Shown here: positions 12,176 to 23,204 of the stretch, piece by piece
How positions within the stretch are numbered: the first letter of the stretch is position 1
Layout: each line of letters begins with the position of its first letter
Assembly: GCA_947474705.1 (NCBI GenBank)
Contig: CANJJS010000026.1
Span: forward strand, 1-54,760
Direction of reading: 5' to 3'
DNA: 54,760 nt
DNA from: Acetobacteraceae bacterium
Lineage (GTDB): Bacteria; Pseudomonadota; Alphaproteobacteria; Acetobacterales; Acetobacteraceae
Notes under the pieces: generated by a model
Told to the model about the DNA's origin: nothing
Seen by the model: the letters and a program-made list of their open reading frames with translations, nothing else
Databases searched by the model: none
Made by a program: the position numbers and the translations under genes

Positions 12176-13408
12176 ATGCCGCATGACACCCCCGTTCTCC
12201 CGTCCTGGACCAGCGAAACCACGCGCGTGCCCTTCTGGATTTACAAAGACGCCGCCGCTCTCGAAACGGAACAAAAACGCCTCTTCGAAGGACCGGTTTG
12301 GAACTACCTGTGTCTGGAATGCGAAATCCCGGAAACCGGCGACTGGCGCGCGACATATCTCGGCGAAATGCCGGTCGTTGTCGCGCGAGACCATGACGGG
12401 ACCATCGCCGCCTTCGAAAACCGCTGCGCCCATCGCGGCGCGTTGATCTGTCTGGACGATGGGGGCAACGCCAAGGAGTTTCATTGCATCTATCATGCTT
12501 GGCGCTACAACCTGCGCGGCGATCTTCAGTCGATCGCGTTTCAGCGTGGCGTCAATGGCAAAGGCGGCATGCCGCCGGACTTCAAGATGTCCGGGCATGG
12601 GCCGCGTAAGCTTCGTGTGACCACGCTGTTCGGCATCGTATTCGGCACACTGTCCTTCGACACACCGGATATTGAGACATTCATCGGGCCGGACGTGCTC
12701 CGCCGCCTGGGCGTGGCCGCCGGCGGCAAAAAACTGGAAATCATTGGCCGCTGCACGGAAGTCCTGCCCAACAACTGGAAGATGTACGCGGAAAACGTCC
12801 GCGACACTTACCACGCCAGCCTGCTGCATCTGTTTTTCGCCACCTTCAAACTCAACCGGCTCAGCCAGGGCGGCGGGACCGAAATCAACGAGGACGGGAG
12901 CTGCCATGTCTCCACCACGCTCGCGCCAGAACAGGAGGAGGACCGCGCCTACGACGGTCTCCGCTCCGTCGACGACGATTTCCGGCTGAACGATCCCAGC
13001 CTGCTCGACGCGGTGGACGAGCATGGCGACCGCGTCCGCCAGCAAATCATGTCGGTGTTTCCCACTTTCGTCATGCAACGCACTCAGAACGTCATGGCTG
13101 TCAGGCATTTTCTGCCGCGCGGGCCGGACAAGACCGATCTGCACTGGATTTTTCTCGGCTACGCCGACGATACGCCGGACCTTCGAACCCGCCGCCTGCG
13201 CCAGATCAACCTCTCGGGACCCGCCGGTTACGTGTCCCTGGAAGACGGCTGCATCGGCGGCTTCGTGGAACGCGGCGCGGCGGCGGCGCGCGACAAAACC
13301 AGCATCGTCGAAATGGGCGGCCTCGGCATCGAAAGTCAGGACACGCGCGCGACCGAGGCCGCGATCCGCGGATTCTGGCGGGTCTGGCGCGGGTTGACCG
13401 GCATTTGA
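12176..13408 (+). CDS. Rieske 2Fe-2S ring-hydroxylating oxygenase, alpha subunit type
   Basis: 410 residues. The N-terminal Rieske domain has the cluster motif C-x-H at CAHRG (about residues 84-88) and C-x2-H at CIYHAW (104-109). The C-terminal catalytic domain has the mononuclear iron site NNWKMYAENVRDTYHASLLH (about 201-220), whose D-x-YH-x4-H pattern carries the two His ligands and bridging Asp. The family hydroxylates or demethylates aromatic and other rigid substrates using electrons from a separate reductase; no reductase or ferredoxin gene is adjacent. GGAG precedes the ATG. The stop overlaps the apparent TTG start of the TPR protein, so the two are probably coupled. Substrate unknown. 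Confidence 0.93.
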   Translation: MPHDTPVLPSWTSETTRVPFWIYKDAAALETEQKRLFEGPVWNYLCLECEIPETGDWRATYLGEMPVVVARDHDGTIAAFENRCAHRGALICLDDGGNAKEFHCIYHAWRYNLRGDLQSIAFQRGVNGKGGMPPDFKMSGHGPRKLRVTTLFGIVFGTLSFDTPDIETFIGPDVLRRLGVAAGGKKLEIIGRCTEVLPNNWKMYAENVRDTYHASLLHLFFATFKLNRLSQGGGTEINEDGSCHVSTTLAPEQEEDRAYDGLRSVDDDFRLNDPSLLDAVDEHGDRVRQQIMSVFPTFVMQRTQNVMAVRHFLPRGPDKTDLHWIFLGYADDTPDLRTRRLRQINLSGPAGYVSLEDGCIGGFVERGAAAARDKTSIVEMGGLGIESQDTRATEAAIRGFWRVWRGLTGI

Positions 13409-16400
13409 ACGAGGCCGCCGTTTGGCTGGAACGAGGGCGCGCGCATCTCGCGTCAAGTCAGGCATCGGAGGCGCATGCGTGTCTGGCACGGGCGGCGGCG
13501 CTGACGCCGTCCGATCCCGGCATTCTCGCCGGCCTCGGGAAGGCCTTGTATCTGTTGGGCCGCGCGGACGAGGCGCTCCCGATTTATCGCGCGCTCCTTC
13601 GCCACGCGCCTCGCGACCCCGCGATGTTGGTCGATCTCGGCCGGGCGCTGCGCGCGGCGGGGGAATTCCAGGACGCCCTGTCGACCTACGAACAGGCACT
13701 GACGATCCTGCCGCGAGAGCCGGCAATTCTGAACAATATCGGCAACTGCCTGCTGGCCATGGGCCGGGCGGACGCCGCGATCGCGCGGTTCGAACAAGCC
13801 ATCGCGTCGAATCCGGATTACACGGAAGCGCGCCATAATCTCGGCCTGGCGCTGCTAACCGCCGGCCGGATGAAGGAAGGCTGGCGTGAATATCGCTGGC
13901 GCCTGCACACCGCCTCGCATCTCGTGGACGGCAAACCGCTGGCGGAATGGGACGGCGTCCCCATGCCCGGAAAAATATTGCTGGTGCGCGCCGAGCAGGG
14001 ACTTGGCGATACCATTCAATTCGCGAGATATTTACCCATCGCCGCCCGCCGCGCGGTGGTCGCCGCCATCGTCCCGCCCGCGCTTCGCCGCCTACTGGCC
14101 GGTCTGCCCGGCGTCGCCCATGTCCTGACACACGGCGATGCCATGCCGGTTTTCGCGGCCCAGTGCGCGCTGGTGAGTCTGCCCCGCCTGTTGGCCCGGC
14201 CCGAACCGGAGGACGCCGGACCCGTCCCCTATCTTCAACCCGATCCCGTCGCCGTCGCGCGGTGGCGCGCCCGTCTCGACACGCTTCCTTCCCCCAAAAT
14301 CGGACTCGTCTGGGCCGGTAATCCGGGCCTTGGCACCACCGCCCGTCTCGACCACCGCCGGTCGTTGCCGCTGGCGGCGTTCGCACCGCTCGCCGGTCCG
14401 ACATTCGTTTCCCTGCAAAAAGGACCGGCCGCGGTTCAGGCCCGCACCCCGCCCACCGGGATGGCGTTGATCGACTGGACGGAAGAACTCTCGGATTTCG
14501 CCGATACCGCCGCCCTGATCGCGGCGCTGGACATGGTCGTGTCCGTCGATACCGCCGTCGCGCATCTGGCTGGCGCTCTGGCGAAGCCGGTTTGGATGCC
14601 GAACCGGACCGATACCGACTGGCGCTGGGGCCTCACCGGAGACACCACACCCTGGTATCCCAGCATGCGGATTTTCCGCCAAACCACGGCCGGAGACTGG
14701 ACCGCGCCGATCGCGGCCATGGCCGAAGCGTTGAAAAATCCGCCCATGGCGCGCCACTTGCTGACTTACGCCCGCGCCAGCCTCGCCGCCGGAGACACCA
14801 CGCGAGCCGAGAACGACGCCCGCCAGGCGATCGCCACCGAACCGGACAACCCCGAGGCCCATGAAACCCGCGGCCTCGCGCTGTTCGCCGCGGGCCATTG
14901 GTCCGATGCCTGGCCGGAGATAACCTGGCGCCTCGCCCGTTCCGGGCCGGTTTGGAACGGCGAGGCCATGGACCGCCAGACCCTGCTGCTACAGGCGGAC
15001 ACGGTGGAAGATGTTCTGCTCCACGGGCGCTTCGTGGCGGAGGCCGCGCGACGGTCGGGCGCCCGCGTCGTGCTGTCGGTGCCACCGGACGCGCAACGCC
15101 TGATGAGCGGGATGCACGGCGTCTCGATTGCCACCTCCGCCAATCCGCCGCACCATCGGCGATGCCCGCTGGCCCTGCTGCCCGCTTTGTTCCGGGTTCG
15201 TCCACGCGATATTCCCGACACCGGTCTCTGCCCGCACGCGCCGCCACCGGTCGTCGAGGCATGGTCGCGAAAGGTCGCGCATTTACAGCGCCCCCGGGTT
15301 GGCGTCGCGTTCGACGACCCCGGCCTCCACGCCGCGCTCGCCCAGATCGACGGCATCGACCTCGTGCCGCTGTCCCACGACATCCCCGCGAACGAAAACA
15401 CATGGCGCGCGGCCATCGACGATTTGACGGAGATGGCCGGATTGCTGCCGCATCTGGATCTGGTCGTCGCGACCGGAAACAGAGTGGCGCATCTGGCCGC
15501 GGCGCTGGAACGCCCGGTCTGGCTGCTCCGCCCCAACGCCCGCGCCTGGCCCTGGCTCCCTGGGGGGGAGGACAACCCCTGGTATCCCACCGTCCGCCAA
15601 TTCGCCGAGGGAACCGAAATGTCCCTCGTCGCCGAACTCTCCGCCATGGCGGCCACGACACCGGCCGAAGCGATGTTCGCGTTCGCCAACGATCGTTACC
15701 GCCAGAAAGATTATGCGGCCGCCGCGATGGGGTTTCGCCAAACCCTGGCGCTTCAATCCCAGCACCCCGGCGCACTGGGCAATCTGGCGATGACACTGCT
15801 CATTCTCGGACGACCTGACAGCGCCACCTGTTACGCGGAACAAGCCATCCTCGCCGTACCCAACTCTCACCCGCTCCGCTTCCGCCTGGGCCTCGCGCTT
15901 CACGCGTCGGGCCGATTCGACGCCGCCGCCGTCCGGCTGCGGGAGGCATTGGCGATGGCCCCGGACCACGCGGACACACTCACCGCGCTTGGCAACGCGG
16001 TTGGCGCCGCCGGAGATATCGGAACGGCCGTGGCACTGCATCGCGCCGCCGTGGCTGTCCGGCCAAATGGCGCGGGTTATCGCACGAACCTCGCATATAC
16101 GTTGCTGCGCCAGGGACAATGGACCGAAGGCTGGCGCGAACACGAACATCGCCCCACCCGCCCGGCGATCGCCGATCTCTGGGACGGCCAGACGCTGAAC
16201 GGCCGCCCTCTGGTTCTGCGGCACGAACAGGGCCTTGGCGATGTCATCCAGTTTTGCCGCTACGCGCCGATGGCCGCGGCACGAGTCGCCGGTCAGGTCG
16301 TTCTGACGGTGCCGCCCACGCTCCAACCTTTATTGAACACGCTGCCGGGCGTGACAGTGCAGTCCGCTGACGCGCCAATCCCCGGCAACGCGGTGCAATA

Positions 16401-17001
16401 CCCGTTGCTGTCGTTGCCATTGCTGTTCGGCACCGCACCGGACACCATTCCGGCCGATGTCCCCTACCTCTGTACCGATCCTGGCCGTCTGGCCCGATGG
16501 CGCGCGCGTCTCGCCCCTCTTCACGGCCACCGCGTCGGTCTTGTCTGGGCAGGCAACCCGAGGCTGGGCACCGCTTCCCTTGGCGCCACCGATCGCCGCC
16601 GATCCTTGCCCGAGAACGCGTTCTCGGCATTTACCGGGTCCCGCCCTGTCAGCTTCGTGTCCCTTCAAATCGGGGACGCGCCCTCCGCCGGCGTGCCGCT
16701 CCACGATTGGACCGCCGATCTCACCGACTTCGCGGAAACCGCCGCGCTGATCGAGGCACTGGACCTCGTGATCTCCGTCGATACCTCCGTGGCGCATCTG
16801 GCCGGCGCCCTGGGAAAACCCGTCTGGCTGCTGAACCGGTTCGATACCGATTGGCGCTGGGGCGACGGCGAACGGACGCCCTGGTATCCCTCCATGCGAA
16901 TTTTCCGGCAGAAAACCCCCGGGGACTGGCCAGAGGTTCTGCGACGGGCCGCGTCCGAACTCGACGCCACAGTCGGCGCGCATCGTACCGCGGACCGGTA
17001 A
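13405..17001 (+). CDS. Large TPR protein with three glycosyltransferase-like modules
   Basis: 1198 residues organised as TPR (1-165), glycosyltransferase-like module 1 (175-440), short TPR (445-505), module 2 (515-750), TPR (755-915) and module 3 (920-1190). Modules 1 and 3 share WAGNP (303-307; 1048-1052), D[HR]RRS (316-320; 1063-1067), SVDT[AS]VAHLAGAL (380-392; 1124-1136), DTDWRWG and WYPSMRIFRQ, the pattern of TPR-linked GT9/heptosyltransferase-like domains. Module 2 keeps the outline (RVAHLAAAL, WYPTVRQF) but has lost WAGNP, the RRS motif and the SVDT core. Likely role: sugar transfer to protein or surface polymer, with the TPRs choosing the acceptor; this is inferred from the family. 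TTG 13405 overlaps the upstream stop; the real start could be slightly further in. Confidence 0.85.
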   Translation: MNEAAVWLERGRAHLASSQASEAHACLARAAALTPSDPGILAGLGKALYLLGRADEALPIYRALLRHAPRDPAMLVDLGRALRAAGEFQDALSTYEQALTILPREPAILNNIGNCLLAMGRADAAIARFEQAIASNPDYTEARHNLGLALLTAGRMKEGWREYRWRLHTASHLVDGKPLAEWDGVPMPGKILLVRAEQGLGDTIQFARYLPIAARRAVVAAIVPPALRRLLAGLPGVAHVLTHGDAMPVFAAQCALVSLPRLLARPEPEDAGPVPYLQPDPVAVARWRARLDTLPSPKIGLVWAGNPGLGTTARLDHRRSLPLAAFAPLAGPTFVSLQKGPAAVQARTPPTGMALIDWTEELSDFADTAALIAALDMVVSVDTAVAHLAGALAKPVWMPNRTDTDWRWGLTGDTTPWYPSMRIFRQTTAGDWTAPIAAMAEALKNPPMARHLLTYARASLAAGDTTRAENDARQAIATEPDNPEAHETRGLALFAAGHWSDAWPEITWRLARSGPVWNGEAMDRQTLLLQADTVEDVLLHGRFVAEAARRSGARVVLSVPPDAQRLMSGMHGVSIATSANPPHHRRCPLALLPALFRVRPRDIPDTGLCPHAPPPVVEAWSRKVAHLQRPRVGVAFDDPGLHAALAQIDGIDLVPLSHDIPANENTWRAAIDDLTEMAGLLPHLDLVVATGNRVAHLAAALERPVWLLRPNARAWPWLPGGEDNPWYPTVRQFAEGTEMSLVAELSAMAATTPAEAMFAFANDRYRQKDYAAAAMGFRQTLALQSQHPGALGNLAMTLLILGRPDSATCYAEQAILAVPNSHPLRFRLGLALHASGRFDAAAVRLREALAMAPDHADTLTALGNAVGAAGDIGTAVALHRAAVAVRPNGAGYRTNLAYTLLRQGQWTEGWREHEHRPTRPAIADLWDGQTLNGRPLVLRHEQGLGDVIQFCRYAPMAAARVAGQVVLTVPPTLQPLLNTLPGVTVQSADAPIPGNAVQYPLLSLPLLFGTAPDTIPADVPYLCTDPGRLARWRARLAPLHGHRVGLVWAGNPRLGTASLGATDRRRSLPENAFSAFTGSRPVSFVSLQIGDAPSAGVPLHDWTADLTDFAETAALIEALDLVISVDTSVAHLAGALGKPVWLLNRFDTDWRWGDGERTPWYPSMRIFRQKTPGDWPEVLRRAASELDATVGAHRTADR

Positions 17002-18054: not shown

Positions 18055-19866
18055 ATGCCGCGTCTTTCTTCGCCCCAAGGCCCACGACGCCCGTCGAAAC
18101 CGCCGCCCGCCAGGGCCGACGGAGAAGCGCGGCGCGCGCCCGCCCGTTCGTGGGGCCGGACGCTGTCGCGCGCGATCGCCCGTCTCTTCATCTGGCTCTC
18201 CGTTCTGGGCCTGATCGCGGCCACGGCGGTCGTCGTTTGGGCCGCCTACGACCTACCGCGCCCTGAATCCGCCATGGACGCCACGCGGCGCCCGGCGCTG
18301 GTGGTGCAGGACCGCATGGGGCAGACGATCGCCACCTATGGCGATTTGGTCGGCGAACCCCTGCGCCTGGCCGATATGCCGCCGGAGTTACCGGCCGCGC
18401 TGGTCGCGGTGGAGGACCGGCGGTTCTGGTCCCATTGGGGCATCGACATCGTGGGGGTCACCCGCGCGATCTGGGTCGATGTGACCGTGGGGCGGCTGGC
18501 CCAAGGCGGGTCGTCGATCACGCAACAGGTCGCCAAGACGCTGTTTCTGACCAACGAGCGGACGTTCCGCCGAAAAATCCGGGAATTCCTGTTAACGATC
18601 TGGCTGGAACGCACCTTCTCCAAGAACGAAATTCTCGAAATCTACCTGAACCGGGTCTATCTCGGCGCCGGGACCTGGGGAGTGGACGCGGCGGCCCGCA
18701 TGTATTTCGGCGTCTCGGCGCGCAAGGTGAATCTCTGGCAAGCGGCGGTTCTGGCCGGGCTGCCACGGGCTCCGTCGCGGTTCAATCCCAGGACCAACCC
18801 CTCCGCCGCGGCGGCCCGCGCCAAGGAAGTTCTAACGGCGATGGCGGAAACCGGGGCGATCGCGCCGGAACGCGCCAAAACCGAGGCGGCGAAAATCGCC
18901 TTCCCCAACAGCGCCCGCCAGGCCGGCGCCTGGTTCGCCGACTGGGCCGCCGAACAGATCCAGGCCATCGTGCCGCCCGACCGGGACGCGGTCATTCGAA
19001 CAACCCTGGACCTGCGTCTGCAATTCGCGGTCGAAGCGGCGCTGAACAACATGCTCGACGGACCGGGCGCCGCCGCGCGGGCGGAACAGGGCGCGGTGGT
19101 GGTGCTTGACGCCGCGACCGGCGCGGTCCGGGCCATGGCCGGCGGGCGCGACTACCGCGAGAGCAACTTCAACCGCGCGGTCAACGCGCATCGCCAACCC
19201 GGTTCGGCGTTCAAGCCGTTCGTCTGGCTGACCGCCCTCGAAAATGGCATGACGCCCGCCGATACAATCGTCGACGCGCCGATCCGGATCGGCGATTGGC
19301 GACCTGAAAACTTCGAGCGCGATTATCGTGGCGAAATCACGCTGGACGAGGCGCTCGCGCATTCCGTCAACACGGTTTCGGTGCGGCTGATGCAGCGATT
19401 TGGCGGGCCACGGCCGGTCGCGGCAACCGCGGCGAGGTTGGGGATCTCCAGTCAGCTCCCGAAAGACGCGTCGCTGGCGCTGGGCACCGGGGAAGTCGGA
19501 CTTTTGGAGCTGACCGCGGCCTTCGCGCCGTTTTTTAACGGCGGATACCGGGTCGCGCCGTTCGCGGTTGGCCCGCGCGAACCACCCGAACAGGCGATCC
19601 GCCCAGAGCACGCGGCGATGATGCTGGATATGATGACCTCGGTCGTGTCGCGCGGAACCGGTAAAGCGGCCGCTGTCGCCGGGATCGCGGCCGCCGGCAA
19701 GACCGGCACGACGTCGGATTACCGGGACGCCTGGTTCGTCGGAGGCGCGAATGGCGCGATGATCGGCGTATGGATGGGCAATGACGGCAATACCCCGATG
19801 AAAAACGTCACCGGCGGAGGCCTCCCGGCGCGGTTATTCCGGGATATCGCGGCGGCCATGCGTTAA
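18055..19866 (+). CDS. Class A penicillin-binding protein (bifunctional transglycosylase/transpeptidase)
   Basis: 603 residues. A basic, Pro-rich cytoplasmic tail (1-42) is followed by a membrane anchor (43-65). The GT51 transglycosylase domain has VAVEDRRFWSHWGID (catalytic Glu120), GGSSITQQVAKTLFL and RKIREFLLTIWLER with EILEIYLNRVYLG. The transpeptidase domain has the active-site SxxK in QPGSAFKPF (S384, K387), SVN at 437-439, and KTGTTSDY near residue 560. It polymerises lipid II and crosslinks peptidoglycan on the outer face of the inner membrane. At about 600 residues it is a compact PBP1A/Pbp1b-like protein without the OB-fold or long C-terminal tail. Start at 18055 is divergent from the dehydrogenase gene, with 107 bp between. 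Confidence 0.95.
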   Translation: MPRLSSPQGPRRPSKPPPARADGEARRAPARSWGRTLSRAIARLFIWLSVLGLIAATAVVVWAAYDLPRPESAMDATRRPALVVQDRMGQTIATYGDLVGEPLRLADMPPELPAALVAVEDRRFWSHWGIDIVGVTRAIWVDVTVGRLAQGGSSITQQVAKTLFLTNERTFRRKIREFLLTIWLERTFSKNEILEIYLNRVYLGAGTWGVDAAARMYFGVSARKVNLWQAAVLAGLPRAPSRFNPRTNPSAAAARAKEVLTAMAETGAIAPERAKTEAAKIAFPNSARQAGAWFADWAAEQIQAIVPPDRDAVIRTTLDLRLQFAVEAALNNMLDGPGAAARAEQGAVVVLDAATGAVRAMAGGRDYRESNFNRAVNAHRQPGSAFKPFVWLTALENGMTPADTIVDAPIRIGDWRPENFERDYRGEITLDEALAHSVNTVSVRLMQRFGGPRPVAATAARLGISSQLPKDASLALGTGEVGLLELTAAFAPFFNGGYRVAPFAVGPREPPEQAIRPEHAAMMLDMMTSVVSRGTGKAAAVAGIAAAGKTGTTSDYRDAWFVGGANGAMIGVWMGNDGNTPMKNVTGGGLPARLFRDIAAAMR

Positions 19867-19946
19867 ACTGTGCCGGAACAGCGTTGAACTGGCCGGTCGA
19901 ATAAATCATATTCCCCCCAGATTTTTAAAGTTCCCTCTTCAGCGCG

Positions 19947-22385
19947 ATGACCCAACCGGACAGATACAAGGAATTGACACACGGCAACCGGCACCGCCCA
20001 GCATTTGGGGCGCTGTTGCTGGCGGTTGTCGCGATTCTGACGGCTCTGGGGTTCGCGCGCGTCCCGGCGGCGGCGAGAGTGGCCGAAGCCATGCCCCCGC
20101 AGGTGACTGTGACGGTTCACGACGGGATGCGGACCGCGACGTTCCTGGAAACCATCGACGACGCGGCGTTACGCGCGGCGATCCCCGACCTGATCGCGCG
20201 TGGCGTCGAAGCGGTCGTGTTACGGAAAGCGCCCATTCGCGACGTTCAGCCGCTCGCGAACATGGCAACGCTGCGGTCGCTGAACCTCAGCGGCACGCAG
20301 GTGCGCGATCTCGGCCCGCTCGCGGGGCTCACGGAACTACGAACTCTCAACCTCCAGTTTATCCCCGCGAGTAACTTCGCGCCGCTGACGGGGCTGATCA
20401 ATCTGCGGGTTCTTAACGCCGACGGAACCGAGCTTCAGGACCTTTCGCCGCTGGCGAGCATGACCGGCCTGAGGGATCTGTCGCTCTCGGTCACCAAGGT
20501 ACGGAGCCTGTCGCCTCTGGCCGCGTTGCGGGGGCTTGAGTCGCTGAATATCAACAGCACGCGCGTATCCGACCTCCGGCCGCTCGCGGGACTGGACGCG
20601 CTCCGAAGCGTGAGTTTGAACGGCACGAGCGTGGACGATCTGCAACCTTTGGCCGGGGCGATCTCCATGCGCCGGATCGACGCCGGGGGTACCAACGTCA
20701 GCGATGTCCGGCCGCTCGCGAAGATGCGGTCCCTCCAGTTCCTGAATCTGGAAGGCACGAAAGTGGCCGACGTGTCCGCGCTGGCGGGCCTGGCGGAGTT
20801 ACGGACCCTGGCACTGGCCGGCTCCCTGGTGGCGGTTCCCCCGCCGCCAAAAACCGGTGCCGTGGCGGAACCGCGCGTCACCCGGCCCGCGTCTGAGGCG
20901 GCCGATCCGGTTTTGTATTGGATCGATCAAACCAACCGTTCGATTCAGGCGGTCTCGGCCAGCCCGTTTCACGCCTCGCGCGCGCTCGCGCTGGAAAGCA
21001 TCGCGGTGCTGGACACAATTCGATCCATCAACGGTGCCCCGGCCTTCCTGGTGCGGCTACCCGCGCCGCGCGGCGGCCCGGCGGCGGCCGCGATTTCCGG
21101 TGCCGCGCACGCAGTTCTGACACGCGCTTTTCCGGAGCGTCGCGCCGAGCTGGATGCCGCGCTTGCCAGCATCCTGACGGGAACACCGAACGACACCGGC
21201 CGGGAAAATGCCGTCGCGTTCGGTAAGGCGGTGGGCGACAGCGTGTTCGCCGCCCGCGAGAACGACACTGGCGCCCAACGTCAGCCCAGCTTTGTCCGCG
21301 GCGCCGGCGGCACGCCGGGACGTTGGACACCAACCCCACCGGACTATCTCGCCCCCGCCGAGACCTCCTGGGCCACGCTCCGGCCGTTCGCGTTGATATC
21401 CCAAAACCAATTCCGTCCCCCCGGCCCGCCGCCTGTGGACTCCGCCGCATTCCGCGAAGCAAAGGCCTCGGTCCAGGCCCTGGGCGCCAAACGATCCACC
21501 GCCCGTACCGACGAACAAACGCAAATCGCGCTGTTCTGGGCCGACGGCCAGGGCACGTTCACACCGCCTGGACACTGGAACGCGATCGCCGCGGCCATGA
21601 TCGGACCATTGCGCCGCGGCGTCACCACGGAAGCGGAGGTTTTCAGGGAATTGAACATCGCCCTCGCCGATACCGCGATCGCCATCGCGGACGCCAAATA
21701 TACCTACGGGATGTGGCGCCCGGTCACCGCGATCCGGGCGGGCGACACCATCGACCGGCCGGTTCCGGATTGGACGCCATTGATCGAGACACCCAACCAT
21801 CCGAGCTATGTGTCCGGTCACGCGGCATTCAGTGCCGCCGCCGCCACCGTGCTCAGCGCCTGGTTTGGCACCCAGGCATTTGAATCGAGCAGCGCGGTTC
21901 CTGGCGGAGGCCCCCGAAATTTCACCAGCCTGCAACACGCCGCGGACGAAGCGGCGCGGAGCCGTCTTTACGGCGGCATCCATTTCGCCTTCGACAACAC
22001 CGATGGTTTGGCGCTTGGCCGCTCCGTCGGCGGTTGGGCCATGACGGCGTTCCGCCGGACTGTCGAAGAACGTGGGCCCACCATCATGCTCGATCCACCG
22101 GTCGTCGCGGGGGGCGCCCCCGCCTCGGCCGTTACCGGTTGCGCGCTGAATAATGTCGCGCCGTTAACCGCGTTAACGGTGCAGGTTCAGGATGGTGTCG
22201 CGTTCAGCGTGCCCGTCGACCATCGCGGCACGTTCGCGATACCGGCGACCGCGCTCAGCCCCCCCGGCAAACATCTGATCACCTTATCCGCCACCAGCAC
22301 CACGGGCCGTACCGGCGTGCTGCGCATGGAGGTCGAAACAAATAAGTCCGGCGACACGGTAGGGCCACCCGCCGTGGTGCATTGA
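19947..22385 (+). CDS. Leucine-rich-repeat / vanadium-dependent haloperoxidase-like fusion protein
   Basis: 812 residues, one uninterrupted frame. Residues 19-38 form a signal anchor or signal peptide. Residues 86-295 hold about nine 22-residue leucine-rich repeats of the SDS22/internalin type (LRSLNLSGTQVRDLGPLAGL and similar). Residues 320-705 are an all-helical PAP2/vanadium-haloperoxidase domain with all expected vanadate-pocket residues: K584 and R591 in KYTYGMWRP, S623-G624-H625 in PSYVSGHAAF, and R673 and H679 in SRLYGGIHFAFD. Residues 725-797 form a beta-rich tail. Family knowledge suggests oxidation of halide with hydrogen peroxide, or acid phosphatase activity; which one cannot be told. 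Export would put it in the periplasm or outside. The fusion of these two domains is unusual. Confidence 0.88.
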   Translation: MTQPDRYKELTHGNRHRPAFGALLLAVVAILTALGFARVPAAARVAEAMPPQVTVTVHDGMRTATFLETIDDAALRAAIPDLIARGVEAVVLRKAPIRDVQPLANMATLRSLNLSGTQVRDLGPLAGLTELRTLNLQFIPASNFAPLTGLINLRVLNADGTELQDLSPLASMTGLRDLSLSVTKVRSLSPLAALRGLESLNINSTRVSDLRPLAGLDALRSVSLNGTSVDDLQPLAGAISMRRIDAGGTNVSDVRPLAKMRSLQFLNLEGTKVADVSALAGLAELRTLALAGSLVAVPPPPKTGAVAEPRVTRPASEAADPVLYWIDQTNRSIQAVSASPFHASRALALESIAVLDTIRSINGAPAFLVRLPAPRGGPAAAAISGAAHAVLTRAFPERRAELDAALASILTGTPNDTGRENAVAFGKAVGDSVFAARENDTGAQRQPSFVRGAGGTPGRWTPTPPDYLAPAETSWATLRPFALISQNQFRPPGPPPVDSAAFREAKASVQALGAKRSTARTDEQTQIALFWADGQGTFTPPGHWNAIAAAMIGPLRRGVTTEAEVFRELNIALADTAIAIADAKYTYGMWRPVTAIRAGDTIDRPVPDWTPLIETPNHPSYVSGHAAFSAAAATVLSAWFGTQAFESSSAVPGGGPRNFTSLQHAADEAARSRLYGGIHFAFDNTDGLALGRSVGGWAMTAFRRTVEERGPTIMLDPPVVAGGAPASAVTGCALNNVAPLTALTVQVQDGVAFSVPVDHRGTFAIPATALSPPGKHLITLSATSTTGRTGVLRMEVETNKSGDTVGPPAVVH

Positions 22386-22421
22386 CCACGGCGTGGCGCG
22401 CGTCGCGCCGGCTGAACGGGA

Positions 22422-23204
22422 TCAGAACATCGGCCCCCGGTTCGCCGCGCCGCCATCAATCGTGATAATGGTACCGGTCGTGTAAGCCGAGATATCGGAC
22501 GCCAGAAACGCGACCATGACGCCGATTTCCTCCGGCGTGCCCGCGCGCCCCATTGGCAGCGGCTTCATCAGTTCTTCCCACCGGTTCTCGTCGCCCAAAC
22601 GGTCTTGCGCCCGTGTCTTCATGATCGTGACCAGGCGGTCCGTGGCGATCGCGCCGGGATTGATACCGACGACCCGCAGCCCATCGTCCCCGGCCGACCC
22701 ACCGAGGGCTTTCGTGAAGGCCATCAACGCGGCGTTACCGGTGGTTCCCGCGATGTAGGTCCGGTCCATCTTCTCCCCGGCCACGCCAAGCACATTGACG
22801 ATAACGCCGCGTTTGCGCGTCTTCATCTCCGCGTAGAAGCGGCGGCACATATTGATGTAGCCGAACACTTTCAGGTCCCACGCCTGCCGCCACCGGTCCT
22901 CCGCGATCGCCTGAAGATCGCCGGCGGGAATGGCACCGGCGTTGTTCACGAGGATGTCGATGTCCGGATGCTCGGCGGCCAGTTTGTCGACATTGGCGGA
23001 GTTGGACAGATCGTAATCGTGAACCCGAACGTTGACGTTCCAGCGGCTCATGATTTTCGCGCGCGCGGCTTCCAGATCGGCGGCGGTGCGCGAGACCAGG
23101 ATCAGGTTCACGCCTTCGGATGCCAGCGCTTCGGCGGCGGCAAGGCCGATACCTTTCGACGCGCCGGAGATCAACGCCGTGCGTCCGCGAAGGTTGAGTT
23201 CCAT
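22422..23204 (-). CDS. SDR family protein lacking the canonical Ser-Tyr-Lys triad
   Basis: 260-residue Rossmann-fold short-chain dehydrogenase/reductase. The cofactor motif GASKGIG is at 14-20, NNAG at 87-90, and the C-terminal NPG/EIG and ITIDGGAA features of classical SDRs are intact. The active site is changed: where YxxxK is expected (before AALMAFTKAL) the sequence is GTTGN (153-157), and the catalytic Ser position falls on VLGVAG. Y150 is nearby but out of register. It probably still binds NAD(P) but may have a different chemistry or a non-catalytic role. AGGAGATATCCC precedes the ATG. Neighbours are a haloperoxidase fusion (convergent) and the cupin gene downstream of its start; no pathway is evident. 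Confidence 0.9.
   Translation of the reverse strand: MELNLRGRTALISGASKGIGLAAAEALASEGVNLILVSRTAADLEAARAKIMSRWNVNVRVHDYDLSNSANVDKLAAEHPDIDILVNNAGAIPAGDLQAIAEDRWRQAWDLKVFGYINMCRRFYAEMKTRKRGVIVNVLGVAGEKMDRTYIAGTTGNAALMAFTKALGGSAGDDGLRVVGINPGAIATDRLVTIMKTRAQDRLGDENRWEELMKPLPMGRAGTPEEIGVMVAFLASDISAYTTGTIITIDGGAANRGPMF

Follow-up and report, generated by a model that had tools for sequence, protein, structure and literature searches.

An 812-residue protein encoded on the forward strand (positions 19947 to 22385) of a 54,760-nucleotide stretch of DNA from an Acetobacteraceae bacterium (assembly GCA_947474705.1, contig CANJJS010000026.1; the whole stretch is called "the window" below) joins a set of leucine-rich repeats (LRRs) to a vanadium haloperoxidase (VHPO) domain. 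The two parts keep close company: in all 15 genomes, from two genera, in which this clade of enzyme was found, they are either joined in one protein or encoded by directly adjacent genes. Since they are fused here and lie side by side in related bacteria, the LRR and enzyme parts very probably work as one unit.

The fused protein and its pocket

The frame, its repeats, its haloperoxidase-like domain and a β-rich tail at residues 725-797 had been called in an initial annotation made from the letters alone, and these calls have held up: the frame is open from end to end; the joining of LRRs to a PAP2/VHPO domain is borne out by Pfam (LRR_4, E 2e-27; PAP2, E 7.4e-12 at residues 574-704) and by fused homologues; the nine or so repeats proposed for residues 86-295 correspond to eight full repeats and a partial ninth, from 109 to about 293, preceded by caps; and the tail is β in predicted secondary structure. 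The score for a further Pfam model, VCPO_2nd, is 21.6 bits, under its 27-bit cut-off. A chance or artefactual frame is ruled out by at least 56 further full-length fused clusters, 47-59% identical to the query, together with an AlphaFold2 model of the full protein with a mean predicted local distance difference test score (pLDDT) of 85.2. The predicted template modelling score (pTM) of that model is 0.64. (Counts of fused rows here and in Table 1 come from the best 120 of 271 relatives in a protein search; among the matches listed, P0001 to P0057 are fused, with LRR and PAP2 Pfam matches, and some of these rows are near duplicates.) A promoter and terminator scan of positions 19600-22600 returned signals no more than in shuffled sequence.

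Table 1. Features of the LRR-VHPO protein and their positions in the window
Feature	Positions	Strand	Basis or remarks
Whole open reading frame (ORF), LRR-VHPO fusion, 812 residues	19947..22385	+	ORF call, Pfam, fused homologues
N-terminal hydrophobic segment, residues ~20-38, export signal or signal anchor	20004..20060	+	best 15-residue hydropathy mean 2.72 from residue 20; model helix 23-33
LRR N-terminal cap, residues 53-106, strands and helices	20103..20264	+	model secondary structure; many near-invariant alignment columns
LRRs, eight full and one partial 22-residue repeats, residues 109-294	20271..20828	+	Pfam, model, repeat alignment
Q137-F138, repeat 2 rim, family-specific	20355..20360	+	Q 68/71, F 71/71; neither in 4/4 LRR paralogues
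V182, repeat 4, family-specific	20490..20492	+	71/71; G in 4/4 paralogues
N225-G226, repeat 6, only N225 family-specific	20619..20624	+	each 71/71; paralogues: A or S at 225 (4/4), G226 kept in 2/4
E269, repeat 8, family-specific	20751..20753	+	71/71; R in 4/4 paralogues
Low-confidence linker, residues 292-317	20820..20897	+	pLDDT < 50 in AlphaFold2 model
VHPO domain, residues ~318-705	20898..22061	+	
A581, three before vanadate Lys	21687..21689	+	W in nearly all non-LRR relatives compared
K584, vanadate-binding Lys	21696..21698	+	57/57 fused rows
R591, vanadate-binding Arg	21717..21719	+	57/57 fused rows
H618, aligns with F397 of the Curvularia inaequalis enzyme and F of 4cit	21798..21800	+	H in 56/57 fused rows
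S623-G624-H625, vanadate loop and acid-base His	21813..21821	+	S, G 57/57; H 56/57
R673	21963..21965	+	57/57 fused rows
H679, His expected to bind vanadium	21981..21983	+	57/57; role from alignment to VHPOs
C-terminal β domain, residues 725-798, possibly immunoglobulin (Ig)-like	22119..22340	+	model; weak Foldseek matches; matching stretch in Rhizobium proteins annotated Ig-like

The residues that define the VHPO family (the vanadate-binding Lys, Arg, Ser, Gly, His, Arg and His) are all present, just as the initial annotation's whole vanadate pocket (K584, R591, S623-G624-H625, R673, H679) would have it; the all-helical VHPO fold extends across the whole domain, and the closest solved relative, by sequence and by fold, is a Zobellia-type iodoperoxidase. 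The same residues, with their surroundings (K584-R591-P592, S623-H625, S672-R673, H679 and D683), also fit K-x6-RP ... SGH ... SR-x5-H-x3-D, the signature motif of the PAP2 phosphatases. That signature is common to VHPOs and phosphatases, and pocket residues alone do not tell them apart; the match of fold over the whole domain favours haloperoxidase.

Outside this conserved core, the pocket is set apart. Comparing 90 clade rows (duplicates are included, as are 16 unfused ones with mostly unseen gene surroundings) with 149 rows from relatives lacking LRRs (mostly Bacteroidota and Cyanobacteria) singles out 12 of at most 399 enzyme positions as marks of the clade, where one residue is shared by 90% or more of clade rows and by no more than 10% of the others; the window protein itself deviates from its clade at two of the 12, 461 and 530. 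The sharpest is position 581, three residues before the vanadate-binding Lys (i-3): A in 83 clade rows, S in four, T in two and V in one, against W in 149 of 149 relatives. A later non-LRR set of 17 loci, two of which are one gene, has W at i-3 in 16 and F in one. At 618, 87 of the 90 clade rows have H and 147 of the 149 relatives have F; H618 as a clade marker is nonetheless ruled out, since H also occurs in some alphaproteobacterial VHPOs that lack LRRs, namely giant Ig-like proteins and a second VHPO type (both taken up below). In the sequences compared, it is the small i-3 residue alone that remains specific to the LRR-linked clade. The second shell is not of the Zobellia type, in which, by alignment, W stands at i-3 and F at the halide position in place of A581 and H618. 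Both positions have drawn attention elsewhere: F397 of the Curvularia inaequalis vanadium chloroperoxidase (CiVCPO) is suspected of a part in halide binding (PMC10427571), and in AmVHPO replacing R425, three residues before the Lys, by Ser strongly raised chlorination, with Ala and Thr doing so to a lesser degree and Ala lowering bromination (PMC11871015).

Fused and split forms and their common history

How are the two parts arranged elsewhere? Twelve of 33 genomes of the genus carry the enzyme (G000, G001, G003, G004, G008, G009, G011, G015, G021, G022, G027 and G028): five as intact fusions, G027 as a fusion broken in frame, and six as two-gene pairs with the LRR gene directly upstream of the enzyme gene on the same strand. 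The spacing between the paired genes, counted to the first possible start codon, is -4 (G004), 13 (G028), 29 (G008), 73 (G001) and 76 nt (G003); the start of the G015 enzyme could not be fixed. Three genomes of a second genus, g130 (G161, G298 and G328), have linked LRR and VHPO genes overlapping by 4 nt in each case (ATGA twice, GTGA once), and 4-nt overlaps are found in four of the eight measurable split pairs; a fourth g130 genome, G221, has only a distant VHPO. No linked case beyond these turned up among 299 genomes of the family (E limit 1e-40, three candidates per genome), none besides the window among 385 genomes of the class (E limit 1e-25, two candidates per genome), and among 72,556 plasmid records there was neither a linked case nor a place covering 80% of the query (E limit 1e-20); each of these limits could hide some. 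Among the protein matches listed, 16 are unfused VHPOs of the clade (P0058, P0059 and P0061 to P0074), of which P0058 is what is left of a fused protein truncated at the N-terminal end, and P0070 begins inside the domain. Nine locus records (L024-L032: three from Rhodopila and six from Acetobacteraceae metagenome-assembled genomes, MAGs), the closest among those with a name, have the same lengths and scores as the genus copies and are the same loci, so that the genus is putatively Rhodopila.

The broken fusion of G027 comes from a Baikal MAG (L031 28-2266; L114 8893-11131) and consists of two open frames with a 50-nt overlap, the first part being P0060; the break may be real or an assembly error.

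Distances in the LRR tree and the VHPO tree correlate over 67 pairs (r 0.86, equalled in 0 of 999 permutations; median distance ratio 1.0), a figure that includes 61 fused rows, for which good agreement is expected anyway; what the figure says is that the two domains have not been swapped. With the VHPO tree rooted on the outgroup, the split rows form one clade within the fused rows (SH-aLRT 98, or 97 with the second genus included), the deep branches of the tree being weak and some rows long-branched; in the LRR tree a single branch, with support of 91, parts split from fused. Rooted on the second genus, the fused state takes two changes to account for. Either an original fusion followed by fission, or several separate fusions, may have produced this pattern.

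The repeats are tandem units of 22 residues forming a solenoid of the SDS22 type. In 67 aligned LRRs, repeat positions 1, 4 to 9, 11, 13, 16 and 17 are mostly conserved, and the variable positions are 2, 3, 10, 12, 15, 18, 19, 21 and 22. All 71 LRRs compared, those of split pairs and of the second genus included, have F138, V182, N225, G226, E269 and T271, and the rim signature does not differ between fused proteins and split pairs. At 137, 138, 182, 225 and 269 four LRR paralogues from the genus read instead R or K, L, G, A or S, and R, in that order, with T271 common to all four; this comparison is softer than the count of 71, repeats being liable to align out of register. The repeat pattern, rather than coordinates, suggests that these side chains face outward on the rim.

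Where would such a protein work? A hydropathy script places a strongly hydrophobic segment within the first 70 residues of 53 of the 57 fused proteins, and in the eight split pairs the fronts of both LRR protein and VHPO are hydrophobic as well. The exceptions are two g130 LRRs that fall below the threshold of 1.6 and begin with a twin-arginine-like stretch; what serves as the front of the G015 enzyme is not its true start. Because both parts have hydrophobic leader segments even when separate, export of the protein is strongly suggested, in line with the initial annotation's view of it as secreted. At the other end, the β tail has no Pfam match at E 1 and no Foldseek match below E 0.001 (best, 0.028), and BLASTP against P0075 gives a weak hit (E 0.04) in a stretch other than the expected one.

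Neighbouring genes and related proteins

Might conserved neighbours betray a partner? In 12 loci (the window and 11 others, several of them ending at contig ends), none of the neighbours recurs in more than four, once the LRR and VHPO frames and any that overlie these are set aside. The most widespread is an SDR-family cluster, in four loci at varying distance; others are in two or three, and the window and G027 have SDR and cupin genes downstream in common. The wider gene order is mostly not common, and the neighbourhood was rejected as a clue to the partner. Upstream of the LRR-VHPO gene, with 80 nt between them, lies a PBP1-type transglycosylase/transpeptidase gene (18055-19866, likewise on the forward strand); this penicillin-binding protein is in no shared neighbour cluster and so is not a demonstrated partner. 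At 13405-17001, also on the forward strand, is a 1198-residue frame in which tetratricopeptide (TPR) repeats occupy about 4-157 and 745-909, and stretches resembling heptosyltransferases lie near 366-395 and 1105-1143; it looks like two TPR-glycosyltransferase units in one protein.

Four known systems come closest to the window protein. 1) The Zobellia galactanivorans vanadium iodoperoxidase (4cit, 4usz) is a 458-residue chain with neither an LRR nor a comparable tail, the profile match ending near its C terminus. 2) CiVCPO (1vnc, 1idq and others), at about 23% identity, has F at the position of H618 and Trp at i-3, the latter according to PMC11871015. 3) Giant Ig-like alphaproteobacterial proteins (on Rhizobium phaseoli plasmid pRphaR744a, in genus g74 and in G648) likewise combine a VHPO domain with a β tail and are 37-40% identical to the window protein over roughly residues 300-800. 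They differ in size (open frames of 1778 to 6837 residues in g74 and G648, a coding sequence of about 3,700 in Rhizobium), in the absence of the LRR from the match, in their Ig-like domains, where checked or annotated, and in W at i-3 in those compared; they were located at L161 2481-14000, L171 2635-13506 and in L162. 4) Internalins InlA/InlF, the Chlorobium Roco LRR and SDS22 match in the LRR part, and the internalin models of NCBIfam give the window protein 20-103 bits, where the cut-offs are 1050-1600 (the best, 103 against 1600), which leaves it outside those named families.

The second VHPO type mentioned above (G000:C4; L138; L154 6374-8407; and 11 other genomes of the genus) has A-G-H for S-G-H, W at i-3 and, in most copies, a PEP-CTERM-like C terminus, matched by the Pfam PEP-CTERM model in one of two tested; G010 and G026 have a different VHPO again, whose tail is similar. 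The second type is matched in all 12 genomes that carry the LRR-linked enzyme and in two of 21 others (G016 and G032), an association that Fisher's p overstates, the genomes being related. (G008 escaped the motif script, and in G015 the frame stops short of the tail.) In L155, L156, L157 and L158 a protein of about 800 residues, by Pfam a hybrid histidine kinase in L155, the only one checked, adjoins this second VHPO, and an EamA-like protein of about 300 residues (Pfam-checked in L155 only) is present in three of the four; neither was seen beside the window genome's own copy (L154). Outside the Rhodopila group, 33 of 71 loci (L033-L103) with a VHPO frame above 60 bits hold two such genes, typically of about 441 and 515 residues in Bacteroidota; a 317-residue gene between the two in L042 has no Pfam match.

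No paper describing an LRR-VHPO fusion was found in the full-text literature, a coverage outside which most subscription journals lie, nor any on a Rhodopila haloperoxidase; the main text of a 2026 halogenase-mining preprint contains neither "leucine" nor "fusion". Papers that mention both parts include one on the Plasmodium phosphatome, and the wider matches, by title and the opening of the abstract, concern no such protein. Automatic annotation has already met the architecture, since the JGI name of some members, "Leucine-rich repeat (LRR) protein/membrane-associated phospholipid phosphatase", carries both parts. As far as the searches go, then, it has been annotated by machine but not described. 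The initial annotation's interpretation thus stands as to architecture, intact pocket and lack of a published description; the split gene pair and the altered second shell were not visible to it.

What the repeats may hold

Most known vanadium haloperoxidases make short-lived hypohalites and halogenate with little choice of target (PMC11871015). What, then, might an attached LRR do? A reading to which we give an even chance is that the protein is an exported haloperoxidase with the Zobellia-iodoperoxidase fold, which its LRR keeps on a fixed partner: supplied with H2O2 and vanadate, the enzyme would oxidise bromide or iodide, and maybe chloride as well, beyond the inner membrane; the LRR rim would hold it on that partner; and short-lived hypohalous acid would thus be produced beside it. 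In the split genomes the LRR protein and the enzyme would also have to bind each other. One can go further, tentatively, and think of a natural guided halogenase with a changed pocket (small i-3 residue, His at the halide position) that the LRR aims at one specific partner; that evolution arrived at such a device in two forms, one fused and one a complex of two proteins, is part of the same idea and is offered with the same reserve.

Several points weigh against an exported haloperoxidase that its LRR holds on a partner: 1) NapH3 shows, by its PDB title, that the VHPO fold can catalyse other chemistry. 2) The pocket is not inviolate: fused homologue P0012 has R in place of the acid-base His H625, and in P0069, which is unfused, G624 is replaced by E and R673 by Q. 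3) A581 predicts no halide, the determinants of halide choice being described as largely unknown in PMC13198595. 4) A fixed LRR-enzyme interface is not predicted by the model, with its poorly modelled linker and pTM of 0.64. 5) The LRR does not always have the enzyme beside it: for a second gene of this LRR family in G298 (G298:C472, L153 3677-4576), tblastn detected no VHPO within the surrounding 9 kb. 6) The true gaps between split genes may be larger than those given, first possible start codons having been used. 7) The function is not a core one, since the enzyme is absent from 21 of 33 genus genomes, some of them incomplete.

The readings overlap, and the likelihoods attached to them need not add up to a whole. 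The chief rival, which we think rather unlikely, makes the LRR a dedicated subunit that binds the enzyme itself, for vanadate loading, for solubility or for keeping the enzyme off. SDS22, which binds and acts on protein phosphatase 1 (PP1), serves as the model, and the fold matches include SDS22 both by itself and in complex with PP1. The split form needs LRR-enzyme contact if both work together; the 4-nt overlaps hint at one-to-one synthesis; and a rim that is the same in fused and split forms is what one would expect if the enzyme were the ligand. The docking surface proposed in the initial annotation fits the invariant, family-specific rim, then, with the reservation that what docks there could be the enzyme. 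Three observations tell against such a subunit: the model shows no confident packing of LRR on enzyme (linker pLDDT below 50), the clade is set apart at just 12 of at most 399 enzyme positions, and relatives of the same fold sit in loci without an LRR of this family.

Is the enzyme a haloperoxidase at all? That it is a phosphatase, or some other enzyme with a vanadate or phosphate site, is unlikely: the PAP2 superfamily match, the JGI naming of several members as membrane-associated phospholipid phosphatase, the rearrangement catalysed by NapH3 and the dephosphorylation by apo-VCPO (PDB titles), and a pocket shell unlike that of characterised VHPOs all speak for it, and the whole-domain fold match speaks for haloperoxidase. 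That the association is neutral, the two being exported and co-transcribed but doing unrelated work, with chance behind their fusion and splitting, is very unlikely: gene fusions and fissions of neighbours do happen, and one LRR copy lacks a detected VHPO, but the linkage of the two in all 15 genomes, from two genera, that have this enzyme clade while the wider gene order is mostly not common, the matched trees and the invariant rim argue otherwise.

To return to a haloperoxidase held on a partner by its repeats: a binding domain that travels with such an enzyme would show how bacteria may aim this chemistry. The natural small residue at i-3, where engineered changes alter halide use, provides a comparison for the question of halide specificity, and the natural fused and split forms offer a direct route to telling an LRR that binds the enzyme from one that binds a third partner.
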